Positions 37,020 to 53,200 of a DNA stretch of 64,000 nt are shown here, one piece after another. The position numbers and the translations under genes are program-made. The DNA is from Antedon mediterranea (taxonomy: Eukaryota; Echinodermata; Crinoidea; Comatulida; Antedonidae): contig NC_092673.1 of NCBI RefSeq assembly GCF_964355755.1, positions 10,485,001 through 10,549,000 of the forward strand. Direction: 5' to 3'. The first letter of the stretch is position 1, and the number at the start of each line of letters is the position of its first letter. The notes under the pieces were generated by a model. That model did not search any database. It saw only the letters and a program-made list of their open reading frames with translations, and was not told where the DNA came from.

Positions 37020-38482
37020 TGTATCGTTTAGATTTAGCTTTTTGATTATATTATTTTGTATCTTTATTAAGATCAAGCCACTGATACCCACAGTCACACT
37101 GATACCCACAGCATTGTCTTTTTTTCAGTAATTTGGATTTATATTGAAAATTATCTATTTTTTTCAACCCACTAAGGCTGTCTCTCTCTCTCTCTAATTC
37201 TGTTAATATTATATATAAATGAACTTACAAAAGATTTCAAAGAGAAAGAGATTAATATTTTTTATTGATAAAAAGACTCATTCTTGGCCGACGATATAAT
37301 TCTCATTGGAAATAGTGAAAATGATCTACAATCATTATTGAAAGCATCAATTTAGAACCAAATTTAAAATGTTATAATTTTGAAAAATAATATGCAGGCC
37401 TGATTGTAACCAACCACCAACGCATTAACAATCAAATGAAATAGCCAATCGGTAACAAATTCATAGACGAAGCCAACATGTATAGCATGCACACAGAAAT
37501 TACAAAAACACAAGCCATATAGATGAAGGAAAAGGATCGAACAGAATTATTTTATTAAATTTTCATGCAGTCAAACAACGCAACAAAGCAACCTGGGGAT
37601 TTCCTTTCTTGAGTGCTAAGCACTATCGAATTGGTTATCTATACTGCATTTCAATCGTAAAACAATAAAAATACATAAGATATAATAAATTGTGTGAACA
37701 ATCATTTAAATATACAGATAACATGGTTCGTGTGTACAGACAATTAAAGATGATATACGATAAAATTAGGAATATCTTGCCAAACATGGGGACAATTTTT
37801 ATACAAGGAATAATTAAAAGAATTGGTTCTTTAATATTATTAATTATTCTTTAACAATTGTGTTCTGTTTATGTAGTTATCTGTATGAAAAAAAGCGCCA
37901 TCTATAGCGGACGTATAAGTAGCGATAATTTTGACCAATCAAATTGGGATTCTTTCAAACTCATTGTTTCCTAAAAAAAATCCCAAGCTCTGAACTTACC
38001 ACTCATCGTATTACTATAAGGATATTCATTTCTGAAAAATAGGCCAAGTTTACATGAAGGATGATTTGATCATAATAGGGGAAGTGGTTTGATGATAGAA
38101 TCTAAAGTTTATATAAACTTTTTTTTTAAGATTTAATGTGGCGTACAGTTAATTATGTTATGAATTTTTTTGTATCTCTTTATCAAAAGCACAGTCTCAA
38201 TGAGGGAGATGTGCAACAAGAGTAAATAAACATAATTATATTTTTAAAAAAATATACATAAAAACCATTAAAAAAAATATTTAAAAAGTATAATTTGTCA
38301 TGACAAACCACTGACAAATTTGATATCTTCAAATATAAAACAAAACGTAAAAAAACAAAGCATTATTAAAAGTAAACTGAGAAAGATTAAAAACTAGAAA
38401 TGTTACTGTTACTCTATATTCATGCACTACGCATATTTTAGTTTACATTTCTATGGCTTTAGGTTAAATCAGGGATCAACCC
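37020..38482. other. AT-rich DNA, no gene seen
   Basis: Contains a block around 37061-37165 (GCCACTGATACCCACA, duplicated locally) that matches a block at about 40290-40380, and otherwise nothing I can name. Confidence 0.5.
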
Positions 38483-39064
38483 AAGTTTTCGGCATGTATT
38501 GAATATAGGACTATTCCATTATTATTTATAGGGGTGTTAGTCAATATGTTGGGTTAGGTGTGCCAGGCTTGTTGAGGCTTCTATTGTTCGTGTCATTGTG
38601 CCAATTGTTTTGTATTTCACTGTGTTTGATAAAAACAAACAAAAAACTGCTGCTGTAGTTAGCCTATAGCTTTTATTATGTGTCTGTAAATTATATCGTA
38701 TTTTACACTATATACAGTAGCCTATAGGCCCTAACATGTTTTTTTACTCAACAGTTAAATCAAGTAGCCTCTACAAATAACAAGAAAAGATCAAGAAAAA
38801 GATTCATATACATTTTAATCTTATTTAATTTATGTTTTAATTTATATAAAATATCCAATTTATGTTTTAATTTATATAAATACATCCATGTTTGGTTTTT
38901 TTTCTCAACAGTTGCAAATAGCCTCTACAAACAACAAGAAAAAAATCGATAGATCGAAAGATACATTCTTCAAACTTTATTCAAATATAAGGCACAAGAA
39001 CTTTAACATTATTTAATAAGGCACAAGGAACATATACTATTTTAACTTACTTAATCTGTTTAAT

Positions 39065-39893: not shown

Positions 39894-40849
39894 AATTTTT
39901 TTAACAGTGTAGGCCCTATATATCCTGTACTGGGGAAGGGTTAGTGTGTGTTGCATGAGAGAAAGTTCTGCAATTTTATTTCTGACTATTTTAGTTTTTG
40001 TGTCAGGATCAGCTGGAGAGAGAACCTCACGAACATTGCTAACTCATTGAGTTGAACCAAACATGACACTACTAAATAACACTTAAAACTGGGTCGATGA
40101 AATAAAACATATATACCTTCAATTAAATATGTTACACAATGTATGTTTTGCTTAATCTTATGCCTTTAAGTGTACTGAATTTGTTAAAGTCATAAACTGT
40201 TGAGAAAAAAACAAACATGGATGTATTTATATAAATTGTTTTTCTGGCTGTTTTACTTTATCGTTTTGATTGAGCTTTTCGCTTTTTTTTTTGTATCTCT
40301 ATTGAGATCCAGCCACTGATACCCACATCATTGTCGTTGTTTCATTAATTTTCCTTTGGATTTATATAAATTAAAACATAAATTAAATAAGTTGTATATG
40401 TTTTCTCCTTATTGTGAATAACGTTTGAATGTATTTTTTCTTGTTATTTGTAAGAGGCTATATAACTTGATTCGGCTGTTGAGAAAAAAAAAACATATAA
40501 TAATATTACATGAAATGTAAAATAAAACATGATAATATGATTTAACTGTTGACGGTAAAAAACATGTTAGGGCCTATAGGCTATATAAATATAGTGTAAA
40601 ATACGATATAATTTACAGACACATAGGCTAACTATAGCAGCAGTTTTTTGTTTGTTTTATCAAACACAGTGAAATACAAAACAATTGGCACAATGACACG
40701 AACAATAGAAGCCTCAACAAGCCTGACACACCCAACCCAACATATTGACTAACACCCCTATAAATAATAATGGAATAGTCCTATATTCAATACATGCCGA
40801 AAACTCAGGTTTAAAGTAGTACAGTATTGTAATTGCATTGGACGTTGAC

Positions 40850-41242: not shown

Positions 41243-44200
41243 GTAGTGTTGTGAACGGCGCCCGCTGGGTAAACAGACCACCCCGCCGACCGAACGAGGG
41301 CGTCGCCCCGATAGCTTGATTTGCATACAGGGGGTATGTAAATGTTAACGTGGGACCTCGACGCCGCCCGAGCTGGGCTATTCGAAGCAGGAACCAATGA
41401 GAAACGGACACAACCGGAATTGACCAAGATATTTGGATTTACTGCTTACGGATACCTGTGTGATTTAGGACAAGCGGGACTGTTAAGGTAAGCCTAGTAG
41501 CTTTCATTACCAGGCCATTCCAGCACCGACCTAAAATCACAACATTGGCGCTGCGAGCAAAAGCTCGGAAATCTTTTTTTTTGGTGGGGAGGCGGGTGCC
41601 TTGATTGCCAGCTGGCATTCTTAACGTGATCGGGTTGATTGCGAGGTATTTCGTCCTCTGCTGAAACTATTAACTTATTGTACTTACGGTGCATTTGTTA
41701 GTTTATTGAAGTTGGTATATTTATTGAAGGTACAACATACCGGTAAAGTTAATCACGCAGTATTGTGGCATTTGGATACTTGCTGATTAGCGTATCGACG
41801 GGGTAGTCGATGCATACCGGGAGTTGTATTTATTTTGCTATAGTTGAAGGATTAGTGGGCAGTTTACTAGGCCGTATCACCTGGTGGGATACTAGGCGTG
41901 GCCGTTGAACTGAGTGGCACCACTAATTTTAAATTTGATTGTTTTTTATTGATAACATCTTTTTCGTCCGTCAGTCAGGTTTTTCATCTTGAGAAATTAT
42001 ATTGGCTGTGCGTATTATTGTGTTAACCTCAGAGTGGCATTATCGCTCTCCTTTCTTTGCATCGGGGGAAGGTTTAGTGGTAAGTGTTGTTAAACTGTAT
42101 TGACGTCTTTTTGAATAATCTAGTTGTTTCTCATTGCAGGTTTGCTGGTGAAATATTTTATTATAATGATTTGCATCTCCAACAACCATTTTGCAATATT
42201 GTGTGTGTGTTACTGCATTGACGATATTTTATTCTATTGTTGGGCCTGTAATTTTTATTACGTCTGGCGGTATTTTAATTTGTATCGTACTCTTTGCTTG
42301 ATAACATCTGTTATCTCACACTGCAGCTAGTTTTACCATACTGAAGATCGTAAAGTGTTACTACAACTTTTATTCCGTGCCAGTCTGTTTTCTTCTGGAA
42401 AGCTTGAAGACTGTTCACGTGATTTGTGACTTCAACTTCACACGCTGATTTTCACTGCCTTTCTGTGGAGGGGAGTGGTCTGGTGATCAGTGTTCGTTGA
42501 GCATTACCAAGATCTGGATTTGAAGTATCGTCATCATTTGAATGCTGTGCAATTGGTGAATGTATCACAAATGTTTTAATAGTTTTATGCCCATTTTAAT
42601 ATTCCAGGCATTGGTATTGTATGGCATTTTACATTCCTAGTTTATACACAGTATTCATCTTAAACCGGACAATTACTAGTGGCACAACATACCTTTAGAT
42701 ACATTTTAATGAAAGTCTTTGACCTCTGGCAATACTTTTATACTTTTTAAGTGTATCGTATGTTTTAAAGGATGCCTCATGTTGCAATAAATTTCTGGAC
42801 AGAGCCAGATCTTGTCCATCTACTAGGAAAGAGAGCTAGGAAAATTACTGATTGGAGGTCCAAATTTGGAAATATTAGAGCCTGTGACTTAGAATATTTA
42901 ACTGGAATCAAGTGCTTGTCATCCAAAACGACTCGCTGGGATTTCACACCGAATCCTCAATTAGTGAGTAGTTGGGTTCAGAACACTAGCACTCCTCAGC
43001 TGTTCCATGCAGCACAAGTTCCATTTGGAACTTATTCCGGTGATTTACCTGGTGGTAGTTTCTCATGGAGACACACCAGTACCAACCAACCTAGTTCTGA
43101 CCACAGAGAAAAGACAGATTCAGGTTGTAGGAATACTCACTATAGGTATGCAACCAAAGCAGAATGTCAACCAATATCTGAACTGTTAGCTTTAGACTCT
43201 AGTCTTAATGTACGGGGTCACCATTGCACTAAAGGTAGTAAAACCTCAAAAACTAGATCTGTGTCTAAGCTTTGTAGATTACTGACAGAGGATTGTTTCA
43301 GTGACTCTTCTAGTAGCTCTAGTCTTATGGACTCCAGTTCTAGTAATGATGAGAGTTGTACAAGTGACGAAGATAGTGATCAGGATAGGGCTTATGGTAA
43401 ATATTCTACGAGTGTTCAATCTAAAAGACGACACTCGCATAGGCATTCCCAACGATCACAAAAACTATTGAGACAAAAAGACATTCCCACGTCTCTAACT
43501 TTTAATGGCTGGGATGATGACTGGTATCTTTTTAAGAAACGGTTCAGATCTTTCGCAAAGGCGCAGAACCTTACCACCGGGGATAGTAAAAATGCCCTTT
43601 TTTGGTGTATGGAGGGACCTGCGGCAAAGTTCTTAACCAATCTTTTAAGGATGGAGCCAACATTAGACTTCAAAGAGATGATGGATGTCCTCAGTGTACG
43701 TTTCGGAGACGGTGAGCGGTTTCTAAAACAAGAACTAATAACCAGCCTATCCTGGTGGGGTCAACCCTGCATTTCAACCAGCTGATTTACATGCAAATGA
43801 GCAAACTGGACAGGATATTCAAGCGTGAGACCCCTTTCACAACACACCTCCCCATTCTAAAAGGGAAGCATTCCACCTTTCTCACACTAGCTTGAATACA
43901 CCGAGGAAACTCCCTGAAATGTGGGTTCTGTACGTCTTCTTCTACATCATCATGGTAAGTGTGAAGCTCAGGAGGCAATGTGATGTACATTTGTTGAACT
44001 CAGGTTGATCTCGGAAGTTGCTGCAGATGGTAGGTATAGTGATGCAGGAGCTGATATCTGTACATCAGTATGCCTCCTGAGCTTCACACTTACCATGATG
44101 ATGTAGAAGAAGACGTACAGAACCCACATTTCAGGGAGTTTCCTCGGTGTATTCAAGCTAGTGTGAGAAAGGTGGAATGCTTCCCTTTTAGAATGGGGAG

Positions 44201-47200
44201 GTGTGTTGTGAAAGGGGTCTCACGCTTGAATATCCTGTCCAGTTTGCTCATTTGCATGTAAATCAGCTGGTTGAAATGCAGGGTTGACCCCACCAGGATA
44301 GGCTGGTTATTAGTTCTTGTTTTTTTCAGGTGCAGCAGAAATAAGACGGTGGTTTTAAATCATGACAAGCTGGCTGATTTTAATTTACCTCCTCTTTCTT
44401 CACCTACAGATCCGGATGCAGGACCGTTGTATTGTCTATGTCGCCAGCCCTGGGCCGGCTCGTTTATGATACAATGTGACTATTGCGAGGTGTGGTACCA
44501 CGGTGCATGTGTGAATATTGCACTATCTGAGGCCTGGGACATTGACTTATATCGATGTGCGGACTGCAAGTCCTCAGTTAACAATTAAGTACTCACGTTT
44601 ACCTTCTCTTCTTCCTCAGATATGGATCAGTTACCGTTTGCTGACGGAAGTGATACGGAGATTTCCGAGATGGAGGAGGATGTGTTCTTGGCTAGTCCGG
44701 GGGTACAGGAGGAACTGACGGTGGCTGGGAATACGGGAGGGGCTTGCCCGGCGGCGAGCACCCCAGCCAAGGGGAAACCAATCTGCCATCTGATGACCCC
44801 GAAAGAAGAGGCAGCGGCTGGGGATACGAGAGGGGCTTGCCCGGTGGTGAGCACCCCAGCCGAGCGGAAACTAAAATGCCATCTGGGATGTGGTCCAGTG
44901 AGCAACATACGGGTCCACGTCACGAAGACGCATGCCCCGGCATGTTTCCGGCCACTGGAACGGAGTTCTTGGCGGAGGGCACGAGTGCAGTGGCGGGCAC
45001 TCACCAGTTTGGCAGCGGAGGGCCTTGGTAAAGGCAGAACACCAGAGGACCTGAGATGTCTCCTGAACGCCCAGCACCTTATGGGGGATGGCACTGATGT
45101 CCTACCCCCGGATAGGAAAACTCGTAGTGCCATCTTTATGCTGACACGGGTGATTGGGGGAAAGAGGCCCCCGCCTCTCACAATAGCTCCGGTTATCAGT
45201 CACCCGTCGGCTCTCATACACTGGCGCTGTGTGATCGCTCTCATCGCCTCTTTTGGTGAGGAGTTGGTGAAGGAGTGTGGTCGTCGGGCTGAGGAGGAGG
45301 AGCCGGCAGTGGACCAGATCGTCAAAAAGTCGACAAAGAGAAGGGCGGCAGAGGGAGAACATGGAGAGCGACCGACCAAGCGCGATGCCCCGGCACCGAA
45401 GGATGGTAGATCAGTGGCGGCGCCACCGATTGTGCGGGGTACATCGGCTTCGCTTGGTTCGGCACCCAAAGTGTTCGATGCTTGTTTTCACCTGGACCGG
45501 TTGCAGAGGGACCTGCAGCTTTCCAGACGAGCGGACCTCTGGGACGTGGAGCGAGCGGTGCGGGTGAGGAGTAGAACACAGCCTGTGGAAGTGGTAGGCG
45601 GGATTGCCCTGTTTGGCGATCCAACCACTTACCCCACCGAGCGGGAGATTGGTGGACTGGCGAGGAACGGCTGTGCGGTGGGCTTGGGAGTGGCTCCTGG
45701 CTACTCGCCGACAACGGTCCAATTCGATAGGCTCCTGGCCTTAGCCCGAACTCGAGATGTTCGAGTAATCGGGAGAGTGGGATTGGACCATTCGGCCCCG
45801 CCTACAGATTGGCCGAGACAAGATCTGCTGCTAAAGAGGGTGTTGGGTCGTTGCTTGGACGGCCGCCACCACCGCATCCTGTGTCTTGAAGTCTCTGGAG
45901 TTCAAGGCGATGTCACTGGGGAGGAGTGCCACTATCGCGTCTTGGACATCTTGCGTCTAAGTCGTGTGTCGAAGGAACAGCGTCTGCTTCTGGCAGACTA
46001 CGCTTCCACGGAAGCCGTAGCCACCGCCTACCTTCGACATTTCCCCAGGACATACTTAATTAGTGTGACCAGTCGAGTGACGGGCTTTACGGCCGATCAA
46101 CGCAAGGGCCTGCGTTTCATCGCTACCAATGAAGATCGGCGATTGCTGATGGGGTCAAACGGACCGGATTATCCTCCTGCCGGATACCCAGTTGGAGCAC
46201 CTCATCTGCTGTGGGCGACCGCCGTCGCCGTGGGACAGGTGCTCGACCGGAGCCCCGGGCAGGTCACTGATCTGACATGGAAGAACGGTCGAGATCTCCT
46301 TTGAGCCCCTGGCTCACCCACAACCAGAAGTTTTCAGTTTTCCAGAAGTTTTCCGTTTCAAAAGAACATGGTTCTGTTTTACATTTATTTTCATTTATAT
46401 CTTTCAGGTATCTAGGGAAGCGGAGGACGGTGCTACAGGCATGTCCCACGGCTAGTGACTACCTGAAGGGATCGTTGGAAGCGGTCTACACAGCTACGGG
46501 TATTGGGTATTTTTTCACGTACGAAAATCACCCGGTTTACCCCCGAGGTGGATCCAGGACGGGGTGCCCGCTTTTCAAACACGGGAGGAGTGTTGTGAAC
46601 GGCGCCCGCTGGGTAAACAGACCACCCCGCCGACCGAACGAGGGCGTCGCCCCGATAGCTTGATTTGCATACAGGGGGTATGTAAATGTTAACGTGGGAC
46701 CTCGACGCCGCCCGAGCTGGGCTATTCGAAGCAGGAACCAAGGAGAAACGGACACAACCGGAATTGACCAAGATATTTGGATTTACTGCTTACGGATACC
46801 TATGTGATTTAGGACAAGCGGGACTGTTAAGGTAAGCCTAGTAGCTTTCATTACCAGGCCATTCCAGCACCGACCTAAAATCACAACAGTAGGCCTAGGC
46901 CTAGAGACCTAGTTATTTACTACTAGTACTAGGCCCTAGGCCTGGGCCTAGTAAATATTACTTATTACTAAGCCTAGCTAGAGATAGGCTCTAGCCTAGG
47001 CCTATTCCTATGAGAATTTTAGTATGTAGTACTGTACTGTGTTTGGGATAGAAAAAACTTAATAGGGGTAATCAACCATTTGCCAGGTACACTCAAAATG
47101 TGTGCCGGCCCCCTTAATAGGCCTATATCCACTTGTTTATGGGAAAGGGTGTCCCAAAGAAGAGATCAAACATACACATTTTCAATAATATTTTACCATG

Positions 47201-50200: not shown

Positions 50201-53200
50201 GATGCTGTTATCTTTTACCACCCAACTTCACCAGAAAGATGGTATATAGCAATTCAACTCAACAGTGTCGGGCTTGGTTTATTAAATTTTGTAATGAATA
50301 CGGTGATCAAATGCCAACTAATGGACAAATCCATCTACCATCAACGCTTACCAAACATGATGTGTACATGCATATGAAAGATGAGTTTGAGCTAAGAAAT
50401 GAAGATGTGTGTGCATTAGCGACATTCTACAAGTTTTGGTGTGTTGAATTCAAGCATATTGTAATACCCGAGGTATGTTTACGTTTTTACACTTATTATC
50501 GTTTGTACCAACAAATACCATTCACTTCAATGGACAAAATCCATGTCATCTTCATTGACTGAAGTATTTTTTAACGTATTTTTATAAATTCACTTCAATG
50601 TTATGCAGAAAGTCCTGTAGGTTCAATTTTCATTCATAATAAAATACTGGAAAAACATACTGTACAATCCAGATGCATGTATGATGGGCCTCACAACTCC
50701 TTCCATACATTCACTATATTGAATGCAAAATTTGTTTAATTTTATATTTTTACGTGCTGTATTTTTTCAATTTTTTTTAATAGGAAAATCGTTTTGCAAA
50801 ATGCAGCAAATGCACCAGAATTAAATTTGAGCTGCACAAGACAAATCAAAAGCAAAAACGGCAAATACTAATGATGAAGAGAGAGAAACATTTACGAAAA
50901 CAAAAGTAAGTATGCCTACCTATTTTGTGTACAAAACCAGTAGGTTAAACCTTTCAACAAGAAATTCTGTTGAACTTGTATACCCGGTATTACCATAGAT
51001 AGGAAAAATAATTATTGCTTCCACTGTATACCTCCTCTATAGTATTATTAGTGTTTTTAAAAATAATTCTAACTTAATAAAATTAAGAGTGATTGAAATA
51101 AAACAGAAAATAACTGGGGAAAAATGGTAGAAAATGAAAATAATTATTGTGTATGAACAATGAATGAATAAAAGTGGTTGTAAACAAAAAAAGAGAAAAG
51201 ATAAACAAAATCATTATTATACAAAAAACCTTTACATTTAATCAATAATTGTAATAGATTAGAAGTAAAGCATTGTCTCATCTTGTCATCGGCTAATAGA
51301 TAACATATAACTAAACAAAACAAAAATTTATTATTAAATGCAAAATAAAACTATAAACATATGATTTGAATTTTTCAGTATTGAACGTCAAAAGTACTAT
51401 AAACATATGCAGAAAGCAAGACAGAATCCCACCAAGTATTTGTCAATAATTATCGATGGAATGGACCAAAGCAAGACTGATTTACCATCTTTTGCTTGCG
51501 AATCAAAAGAAACGTCGAAGATGTGGAAACTAGCCACACATGTAACTGGTGTTCTGGTACATGGGCGACATGGGCACTGCTTCATTGACCTAAAGCAGTT
51601 TCCACATGACTCAAACCTAACCTGCAACATTATACTGAAGGTGCTGTCAGAGATACAACCTCTACCACCAGTCTTATATCTGCAGTTGGACAATAGCGGA
51701 AAGGATAATAAAAACAGATTTGTTTTTGCCCTATGTGCTCTTCTTGTAGAGTTAAAGATTTTTCGAAAGGTAAATGACTATAAATTTATAAATGATATAT
51801 AAATAATAAAACAGTATACACAGTGCACTTTAAAGAACCCAGTTCATCATTCATTTACCCTGTTCTTGTTCACCACAAAATATCCCCTGTGTTGGGTGAT
51901 TTCCACCTGCCTAATAGGACAGTAAATAATTTACTATTGGTAATTATCTAAAGACATAAAATATTCAATAACATTCTAGTCTAACTAGATGAGGAAAAAA
52001 TGGAAATATACTAAAAATGTATTTTTTTTATGTTGCTTTGAAAAGTTTTAATTTTAAATCATTACTTCTTTTACTCTTTCAGATAAAGATTGGGTTTTTA
52101 ATGGTGGGTCACACTCACGAGGATATTGACCAATTATTTTCATGTGTGGCCAAATACCTGAACAAATATAGAGCATCTACACTTGATCATCTTCGAAGTG
52201 CTGTTGAAAACTCGTACAAAAAGTTGCCGATTACATCAAGTATCATTTCCTATCTGCATGACATTAAGAACTGGTTAGTACCATACATGCAAGACATACG
52301 TTACCACAGCAAACCACACCAGTTTAAGTTTGTTTTGGCTCAAACCGGAAAATGCATCATGTCCTATAAGAACTGGTCAACGGATTGTACTTGGTGTGAA
52401 TGTGCAAGAGAAATGGACACACTTCCATATTTGCTCAAGGAAAGCCCTGCTGATATACCAGTGTTGTGTACTCCTGATTTTAGTAATGCAGATATACCAA
52501 AGTTAAAAAAAAGTCTGGCGTCTGTTGCAAATTTTTTGCGAATAGAAGAACGTGACTGGTGGGAGGAATTTTTAAATAATATAGAAGACATCACAGAAGG
52601 TATGTACTGTACTACATTGCATGTGTGTTGTTTCACCATTTTACACATATATTTTTTGGTTAACAAGAGAATTTTGATTTTAGTATAGATTCAGCAGCTA
52701 TAACAAAATTCAAAATACTCCACACAACTATGTTGGGTCACATTCACCAATGCATGCTTCCACTGATCATTTTATGTGAGAACCTAAAATTATCAAATAA
52801 CATGAACGATATCTAGTGGAGTACACTGGAGAAACATGCCTCCTGATTAATTCATAAGATAAAATCAATCAATCAGCATCTGATTAGCATGGTGCGCAAT
52901 GTATTGGCCCAGCTTTTATGCAACAAACACCTCGGCATAAATATATCATGAATGTATATTATTTACTTTTTAAAACTAATACGTACTCTTTTTTTTTAAG
53001 GAAATGAACAGCGATTTTTGCTCCATGACATCATTTTTAATGACAACAATGCAAGCCCTATCAGGGAGGAATCTGATGGAAACGAGACAGACATTAGTGA
53101 CTCAGATAATGAAAATGAAATAAGACCGGTATGATAAAGATATTATAGATTTTCAAAATTACATCTTTGAAACATGTAATGCAACTTAGTTTAAAGCAGT

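Follow-up and report, generated by a model that had tools for sequence, protein, structure and literature searches.

The window analyzed here, a stretch of 64,000 nucleotides from the crinoid Antedon mediterranea (contig NC_092673.1, positions 10,485,001 to 10,549,000), contains an element with long terminal repeats (LTR) at 41247-46888. This element is probably a recent, rearranged copy of a Ty3/Gypsy subfamily that lacks pol, carries a Gag of its own kind (Gag′) and a third open reading frame (ORF3), was moved in trans and has an ORF3 product that is a TatD-fold pseudoenzyme. An original prediction, made from the letters of the stretch, had described a young, non-autonomous LTR retrotransposon that transports a PHD finger and a TatD-like nuclease as cargo.

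Structure of the Element

The LTRs, target-site duplication, primer binding site (PBS) and polypurine tract (PPT) are all present, as originally predicted, which identifies 41247-46888 as a genuine LTR element. The two LTRs have TG...CA termini and differ in two of 298 aligned bases (one transition, one transversion). The following features were found; other loci of the same genome are denoted by L numbers.

41243-41246, no strand: left target-site duplication, GTAG
41247-41544, + strand: 5′ LTR, 298 bp (K=0.0067 against the 3′ LTR)
41485-41494, + strand: splice-donor-like AAG/GTAAGCC in the LTR, 57 nt before the LTR end (consensus match only)
41545-41559, + strand: PBS-like TTGGCGCTGCGAGCA, directly 3′ of the 5′ LTR (putative primer binding site)
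42772-43785, + strand: shortened Gag-type ORF, 337 amino acids (aa); 818 aa open in L009, L010 and L011
43725-43989, − strand: inverted extra copy of 44059-44323, in the place of ~1.67 kb in L009
44262-44588, + strand: 3′ end of the deleted pol, encoding the C-terminal tail of the integrase and, at 44433-44567, the PHD finger
44594-44619, + strand: pyrimidine-rich splice-acceptor-like stretch ending CTTCTTCCTCAG (by eye)
44622-46304, + strand: ORF3, 560 aa from its own ATG, with a zinc-finger-like module at the N-terminus and a TatD-fold domain (~45474-46298) at the C-terminus
46581-46590, + strand: PPT ACGGGAGGAG, abutting the 3′ LTR
46591-46888, + strand: 3′ LTR, 298 bp
46889-46892, no strand: right target-site duplication, GTAG

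The full Pol of two relatives was compared with the element using tblastn. No reverse transcriptase (RT) or integrase core could be found within it, in agreement with the original prediction, and only the C-terminal tail of Pol is left. The TG...CA termini, the short duplication, the PBS and the PPT are those of a Ty3/Gypsy element. The Pol order protease, RT, RNase H, integrase is absent from the window copy and present in the relatives L013 and L035, and the window copy was therefore assigned to the Ty3/Gypsy elements as a pol-less derivative. The 265-nt inverted duplication (43725-43989 and 44059-44323) was found in none of the five other pol-less loci compared (L009-L012 and L022).

Pol-Less Copies and Complete Relatives in the Genome

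The genome (354 Mb, 18 contigs) was searched for relatives, and all copy numbers are lower bounds. The LTR search resulted in 40 matches, with 40 of 61 candidates scored; 14 loci were retrieved and compared. Five loci (L009-L012 and L022) resemble the window copy, with a Gag′-type ORF, the PHD finger and ORF3, and have no pol. Each of them carries the PHD finger and a complete or partial TatD ORF, ORF3 being partly deleted in L011 and L012. A genome search with Gag′ resulted in nine loci of at least 94% identity, and pol is absent from all six of these that were checked. The other copies thus do not all carry pol in the place of the supposed cargo.

The Gag′ frame is free of stops over 818 aa in three of the nine loci (L009, L010 and L011); in L012 and L022 it is interrupted. 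The predicted Gag-like ORF of the window is present, but it is a shortened form of this frame with only a sub-threshold Pfam match (DUF1759, E 0.017). Gag′ is 29-38% identical to the Gag of the L013 type. Comparison of the 818-aa frame with L009 gave values of 0.44-0.51 in five of five cases. A match to HHH_3 (helix-hairpin-helix-like), under the curated cut-off, was seen at the Gag N-terminus of L013 and L035. Related long Gag ORFs (663-763 aa) are located at C2:40543407, C7:14816874, C8:28112804, C3:20214437 and C3:20905023; inspection by eye of the ORFs downstream of three such Gag-only loci (L043, L044 and L045) revealed no pol of the Gypsy type.

The LTR and ORF searches also revealed full-length relatives with pol, among them L013 and L035. 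Eight loci (L013-L020), 7.8-9.8 kb in length, contain Gag and Pol without the body of ORF3. The Pol of L013 comprises 1,419 aa in the order protease, RT, RNase H, integrase and PHD. In L013 the acceptor-like site is retained together with ~30 nt of ORF3, which do not include the ATG, and a jump to the 3′ region follows. Since all eight loci show the same jump, the L013-type elements have lost TatD. A 64-bp TatD fragment adjoins L019 outside the element. L021 is an older copy of 9.5 kb (LTR K=0.0285), in which gag, pol, PHD and TatD are present with broken frames.

A second family was found by the genome search with ORF3. Its member L035 measures 9.65 kb between the outer LTR ends and has 307-bp LTRs (K=0.0033) and the target-site duplication GTAC. 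It encodes a Gag of 692 aa, a Pol of 1,455 aa with terminal PHD and a TatD-containing ORF3 of 563 aa. Over its final ~45 codons this ORF3 fails to align with L037 and seems to be in a wrong frame. The TatD ORF3 follows an open Pol in L035 and a broken or deleted Pol in L021 and L028/L040. It is thus not special to pol-less copies, a point on which the original prediction was incomplete.

The PHD Finger as the End of Pol

For the PHD finger of the window a Pfam match above the cut-off was obtained (PF00628, 1.6e-9, 38.1 bits; cut-off 24). Its frame has no ATG 5′ of the finger. In tblastn, residues 1313-1322 and 1324-1419 of the L013 Pol (1,419 aa) align with the tail in the window copy. With two Pol queries, all that was matched in the window copy and in L009-L012 and L022 was the tail of Pol, beginning at residue ~1307-1313 and reaching its end; no further Pol matches were obtained in these copies at E<0.1. 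Because only this tail is left in the window copy and in five pol-less loci, the PHD finger of the window is, by alignment, the final ~107 residues of a Pol that was otherwise deleted and not an independent cargo. Its origin as a captured host gene was rejected, since the finger aligns with the Pol end of complete relatives.

The PHD finger terminates Pol in L013, L035 and L021 and also in the families of L046 and L047. A genome search with the Pol tail, in which 150 of 365 candidates were scored, identified further Pol genes that extend into a PHD finger (51-56% identity), three of which were read (L046, L047 and L048). In L046 and L047 the finger was confirmed by Pfam and is followed by ORF3 frames of 592 and 434 aa, respectively.

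The best matches among solved structures were PHF8 (4.3e-16), PHF2, JHDM1D and BPTF. The Y, M and W columns of the finger are the same as in the PHF8 row of the alignment; these columns would belong to the methyl-lysine cage. The PHD finger of PHF2 is described to bind H3K4me3 nucleosomes (PMC11790891).

ORF3 and Its TatD Domain

The TatD domain of the window was identified by its family hidden Markov model (HMM; PF01026, 1.8e-8, 34.5 bits; cut-off 27), so that a missing HMM match, named beforehand as refuting the original prediction, did not occur. The scores are higher in the relatives L035 (70.6 bits) and L041, a rearranged locus (77.5 bits). For the window domain no match was found in the PDB sequences at E≤1 or in NCBIfam at E≤0.1. 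The TatD model matched 13 places in the whole genome (23 candidates scored), 11 of which coincide with hits of the ORF3 protein; the other two are C4:1319912 and C10:1388563. In the viral contigs searched with the ORF3 and the Pol tail of L035 no relatives were found.

The metal ligand set of TatD proteins is HxH, E, H, H and D. With the E, H, H and D columns aligned to YcfH, the window copy is seen to have five of the six ligands replaced and to retain only one, the second H of HxH. The pol-less and L021-like copies covered show the same pattern: the first H of HxH is C and the second H is kept in 11 of 11, E is replaced by R in 9 of 11 and by G in the other 2, the following H by E in 9 of 10 and by D in 1, the next H by A in 11 of 11, and D by N in 10 of 10. 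All six ligands are retained in L035, L036, L037 and L041. The predicted PHD and TatD ORFs both stand as Pfam matches, but the former lacks a start codon and the latter its active site. The lost ligands speak against an active nuclease in the window copy, and this reading was rejected.

The ORF3 frames of L046 and L047 have no Pfam match at E≤1 and hence no TatD hit. An N-terminal profile built from the ORF3 of the window and of L035 matched L047 with 26.6 bits (best of 500 shuffles 7.3). The ORF3 of L046 has no direct match to the profile and matches L047 at 8.6e-17. Since the N-termini are homologous across families and two of these gave no TatD hit, ORF3 looks like one family with TatD as an optional C-terminal module.

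Human TATDN2 is described to degrade RNA in R-loops (PMC12754012), and on this ground ORF3 might plausibly bind RNA:DNA hybrids. A gene named TATDN2 that lies next to transposon-like genes in the Hox cluster of the giant squid might be a relative of ORF3 (PMC6962438).

Probable Constraint on the TatD Domain After Ligand Loss

For the main count only codons uniform within each group were used, and L011 and L032 were excluded. The window copy, L009, L010, L012 and L022 were compared with L021, L028, L030 and L031 (at least 3 present) over 160 codons of the TatD domain, resulting in 11 synonymous and 3 non-synonymous differences (p=4e-5 against neutrality). Fragments of pol lie upstream in L028, and L031 has fragments of the integrase; the grouping of L030 is less sure, as its pol piece lies ~15 kb off between LTR matches. 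Compared with L021 alone, the five pol-less copies show 24 synonymous and 10 non-synonymous differences in the domain (p=8e-8), and compared with L029 alone, whose locus carries Gag′ of the pol-less kind, 14 and 2 (p=5e-7). The pairwise dN/dS of the domain between the window and L021, L028, L029, L030, L031 and L032 was 0.18, 0.26, 0.11, 0.17, 0.25 and 0.36, respectively. The ORF3 TatD domain of the window sub-lineage thus looks like a constrained pseudoenzyme, judged from codon differences.

Age and Presumed Movement in trans

In 13 elements with both LTRs (window included) K was 0 in 8, 0.0034-0.0068 in 4 and 0.0285 in L021. Exact 4-bp duplications flank nine of the 13, the exceptions being L015, L019, L020 and L021. 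The PBS letters are identical in 12 of the 13 (not in L019) and likewise in L035. LTRs, PBS and PPT of the pol-less group are common with Pol-bearing copies. In a tree of 16 LTRs, Pol-bearing copies included, the six pol-less copies cluster (86/91), this tree having one well-supported branch among its 13 inner branches.

For the window, L009, L010 and L011, the LTR K is 0.0067, 0.0034, 0 and 0 and the duplication GTAG, CAAA, CTAT and GTAG, respectively. Since these four copies have young LTRs and occupy different sites, the pol-less copies seem to have moved after the loss of pol and hence in trans. RT and integrase would be supplied by Pol-bearing kin with nearly identical LTRs. This supports the original description of a young, non-autonomous element with Pol probably provided by a partner. 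The PHD finger of the helper integrase may read H3K4me3-type marks and steer insertion; as the finger would work on the integrase of the helpers, the one in the window is presumably an untranslated relic.

Splice-Like Signals

The donor-like GTAAGCC was found in all seven LTRs that were read, two of these being the LTRs of the window copy. The 307-bp LTR of L035 has a donor-like site at a similar place, with 54 nt left to the LTR end. A pyrimidine-rich stretch with an acceptor-like AG was seen by eye just 5′ of ORF3 in the window, L009, L021, L028, L035 and L047. ORF3 may be translated from a message in which splicing joins the LTR donor to this acceptor-like site. The overhang of the LTR frame that runs up to the donor (48-50 codons in the window, L009 and L013) puts it out of phase with ORF3. 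A short frame of 11 codons in the LTR of L035 is in phase, which was taken as weak; phases were determined by hand.

Weighing of Explanations

Taken alone, the window copy with its PHD and TatD frames and without pol would fit a non-autonomous element with two captured host genes as cargo. This explanation is very improbable and largely refuted by relatives with Pol, PHD and TatD: the finger aligns to the Pol end of complete relatives, the TatD ORF3 stands behind an open Pol (L035) or a broken or deleted one (L021, L028), and the ORF3 N-termini are homologous between families. The complete relatives have the layout LTR-Gag-Pol-LTR, with protease, RT, RNase H, integrase and PHD in Pol, ORF3 behind Pol or missing, and TatD on ORF3 in part of the lineage.

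Several results weigh against a constrained pseudoenzyme in a subfamily moved in trans. If L029 is placed on the pol-less side, the count falls to 6 synonymous and 3 non-synonymous differences (p=0.011), a weaker contrast. Grouping L021 and L029 with the pol-less copies against L028, L030, L031 and L032 leaves 0 and 0 uniform differences in the domain and 1 and 2 in the ORF, which makes the branching order among these copies uncertain. Between the window and L009 5 synonymous and 8 non-synonymous differences were counted in the ORF (p=0.23) and 2 and 4 in the domain (p=0.50). All six pairs among the window, L009, L010 and L022 gave non-significant ORF ratios of 0.46-0.60 (p 0.20-0.26), with 0-2 synonymous and 2-6 non-synonymous differences in the domain, numbers too small to be read. 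As the young pol-less copies hold so few changes, ORF3 may be relaxed now. The L013-type LTRs are free of differences in six of eight loci that have no TatD ORF, so that ORF3 is not needed in cis. A structure model of the window TatD domain made without an alignment reached a pLDDT of 40 and was not used, and the reading of H3K4me3 by the PHD finger would follow from sequence likeness.

The non-significant pairs, the loss of five ligands and the thriving of L013-type elements without ORF3 are also what would be expected if ORF3 with TatD were a neutrally decaying passenger, its open frame reflecting the recent insertion of young copies. This is unlikely, since the uniform differences to older copies are mainly synonymous, although the older copies share the ligand changes. 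In addition, the two families that keep the ligands share 42.9% identity with each other and 43.9 and 37.1% with the altered lineage, which is thus at about the same distance. A two-component system, in which TatD-less L013-type elements give Gag-Pol-PHD and pol-less ones give Gag′ and ORF3 in mutual help, is rather doubtful. Both groups are young, with identical PBS and PPT and similar LTRs, the examined copies with pol and window-type TatD (L021, L028/L040 and L031) are broken or deleted, and the ORF3 remnant of L013 fits a loss of TatD; there is, however, no sign that L013-type elements need ORF3, and plain parasitism by the pol-less group suffices. With a trans-mobilized pol-less subfamily as the preferred explanation, the TatD pseudoenzyme of ORF3 would owe its retention to the binding of nucleic acid or of a partner protein and not to cutting.

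More tentatively, these elements may belong to a Ty3/Gypsy-type clade with a PHD-ended integrase (H3K4me3-type) and a spliced zinc-finger ORF3. One branch of it would have the constrained TatD pseudoenzyme and a population split into TatD-less Pol-suppliers and pol-less copies with Gag′ and TatD.

Other Features of the Window

Inverted repeats of 168 nt (38478-38645 and 40644-40811, ~2 kb apart) are 95% complementary. At 51993-52688 a 231-aa ORF with a DUF7869 match (8.3e-33) was found.

Comparison With Known Systems

Chromoviruses are Ty3/Gypsy elements with a histone-reading module at the integrase C-terminus. Here the module is a PHD finger, and no chromodomain was found in the Pol of L013 or L035 at E≤0.1, which sets these elements apart from chromoviruses. 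PHD fingers in mobile-element proteins are described for the ORF1 of CR1/L2 long interspersed nuclear elements (PMC4120745) and the Ginger1-9_HM transposase (PMC2836005); unlike these, the finger found here lies on the integrase C-terminus of an LTR element. The PHD finger mentioned in PMC3286476 belongs to a neighboring host gene.

In wheat, Gag-making pol-less partners of Pol-bearing elements are described (RLG_Cereba/RLG_Quinta and RLG_Wilma/Sabrina/WHAM; PMC11302176; PMC9744471). As in these pairs, a Pol-bearing element is accompanied by a pol-less one with its own Gag, and LTR motifs, PBS and PPT are common to both. Like Quinta, the pol-less group has several insertions; the intact own Gag of such a partner is missing in the window copy, whose Gag is shortened. 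In contrast to the wheat pairs, the host differs and the pol-less partner adds an ORF3 with TatD fold, and in place of the CR domain on the Cereba integrase a PHD finger is found.

An enzyme-fold ORF3 behind pol is also described for LTR elements of bdelloid rotifers, where it is a DEDDy exonuclease or GDSL esterase said to be expressed from spliced messages (PMC5408684). The nuclease fold is a different one here. Furthermore, the catalytic residues of the rotifer ORF3 are reported to be mostly conserved (DEDD to DEED), without a significant deviation from neutrality (PMC5408684), whereas here the ligands are lost and the differences between groups are mainly synonymous. No report of a TatD-bearing LTR element or of a PHD-ended LTR integrase was found in the searches made, which covered open-licence PMC papers and not Repbase.

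An integrase that carries a PHF8-like PHD finger would offer a natural way to examine whether chromatin guides integration into active promoters. The pol-less group would add a parallel, outside plants, to the wheat elements that lack pol and make their own Gag. If true, an ORF3 with a nuclease fold that is without an active site and still constrained would allow the binding function of accessory ORFs to be told apart from catalysis.

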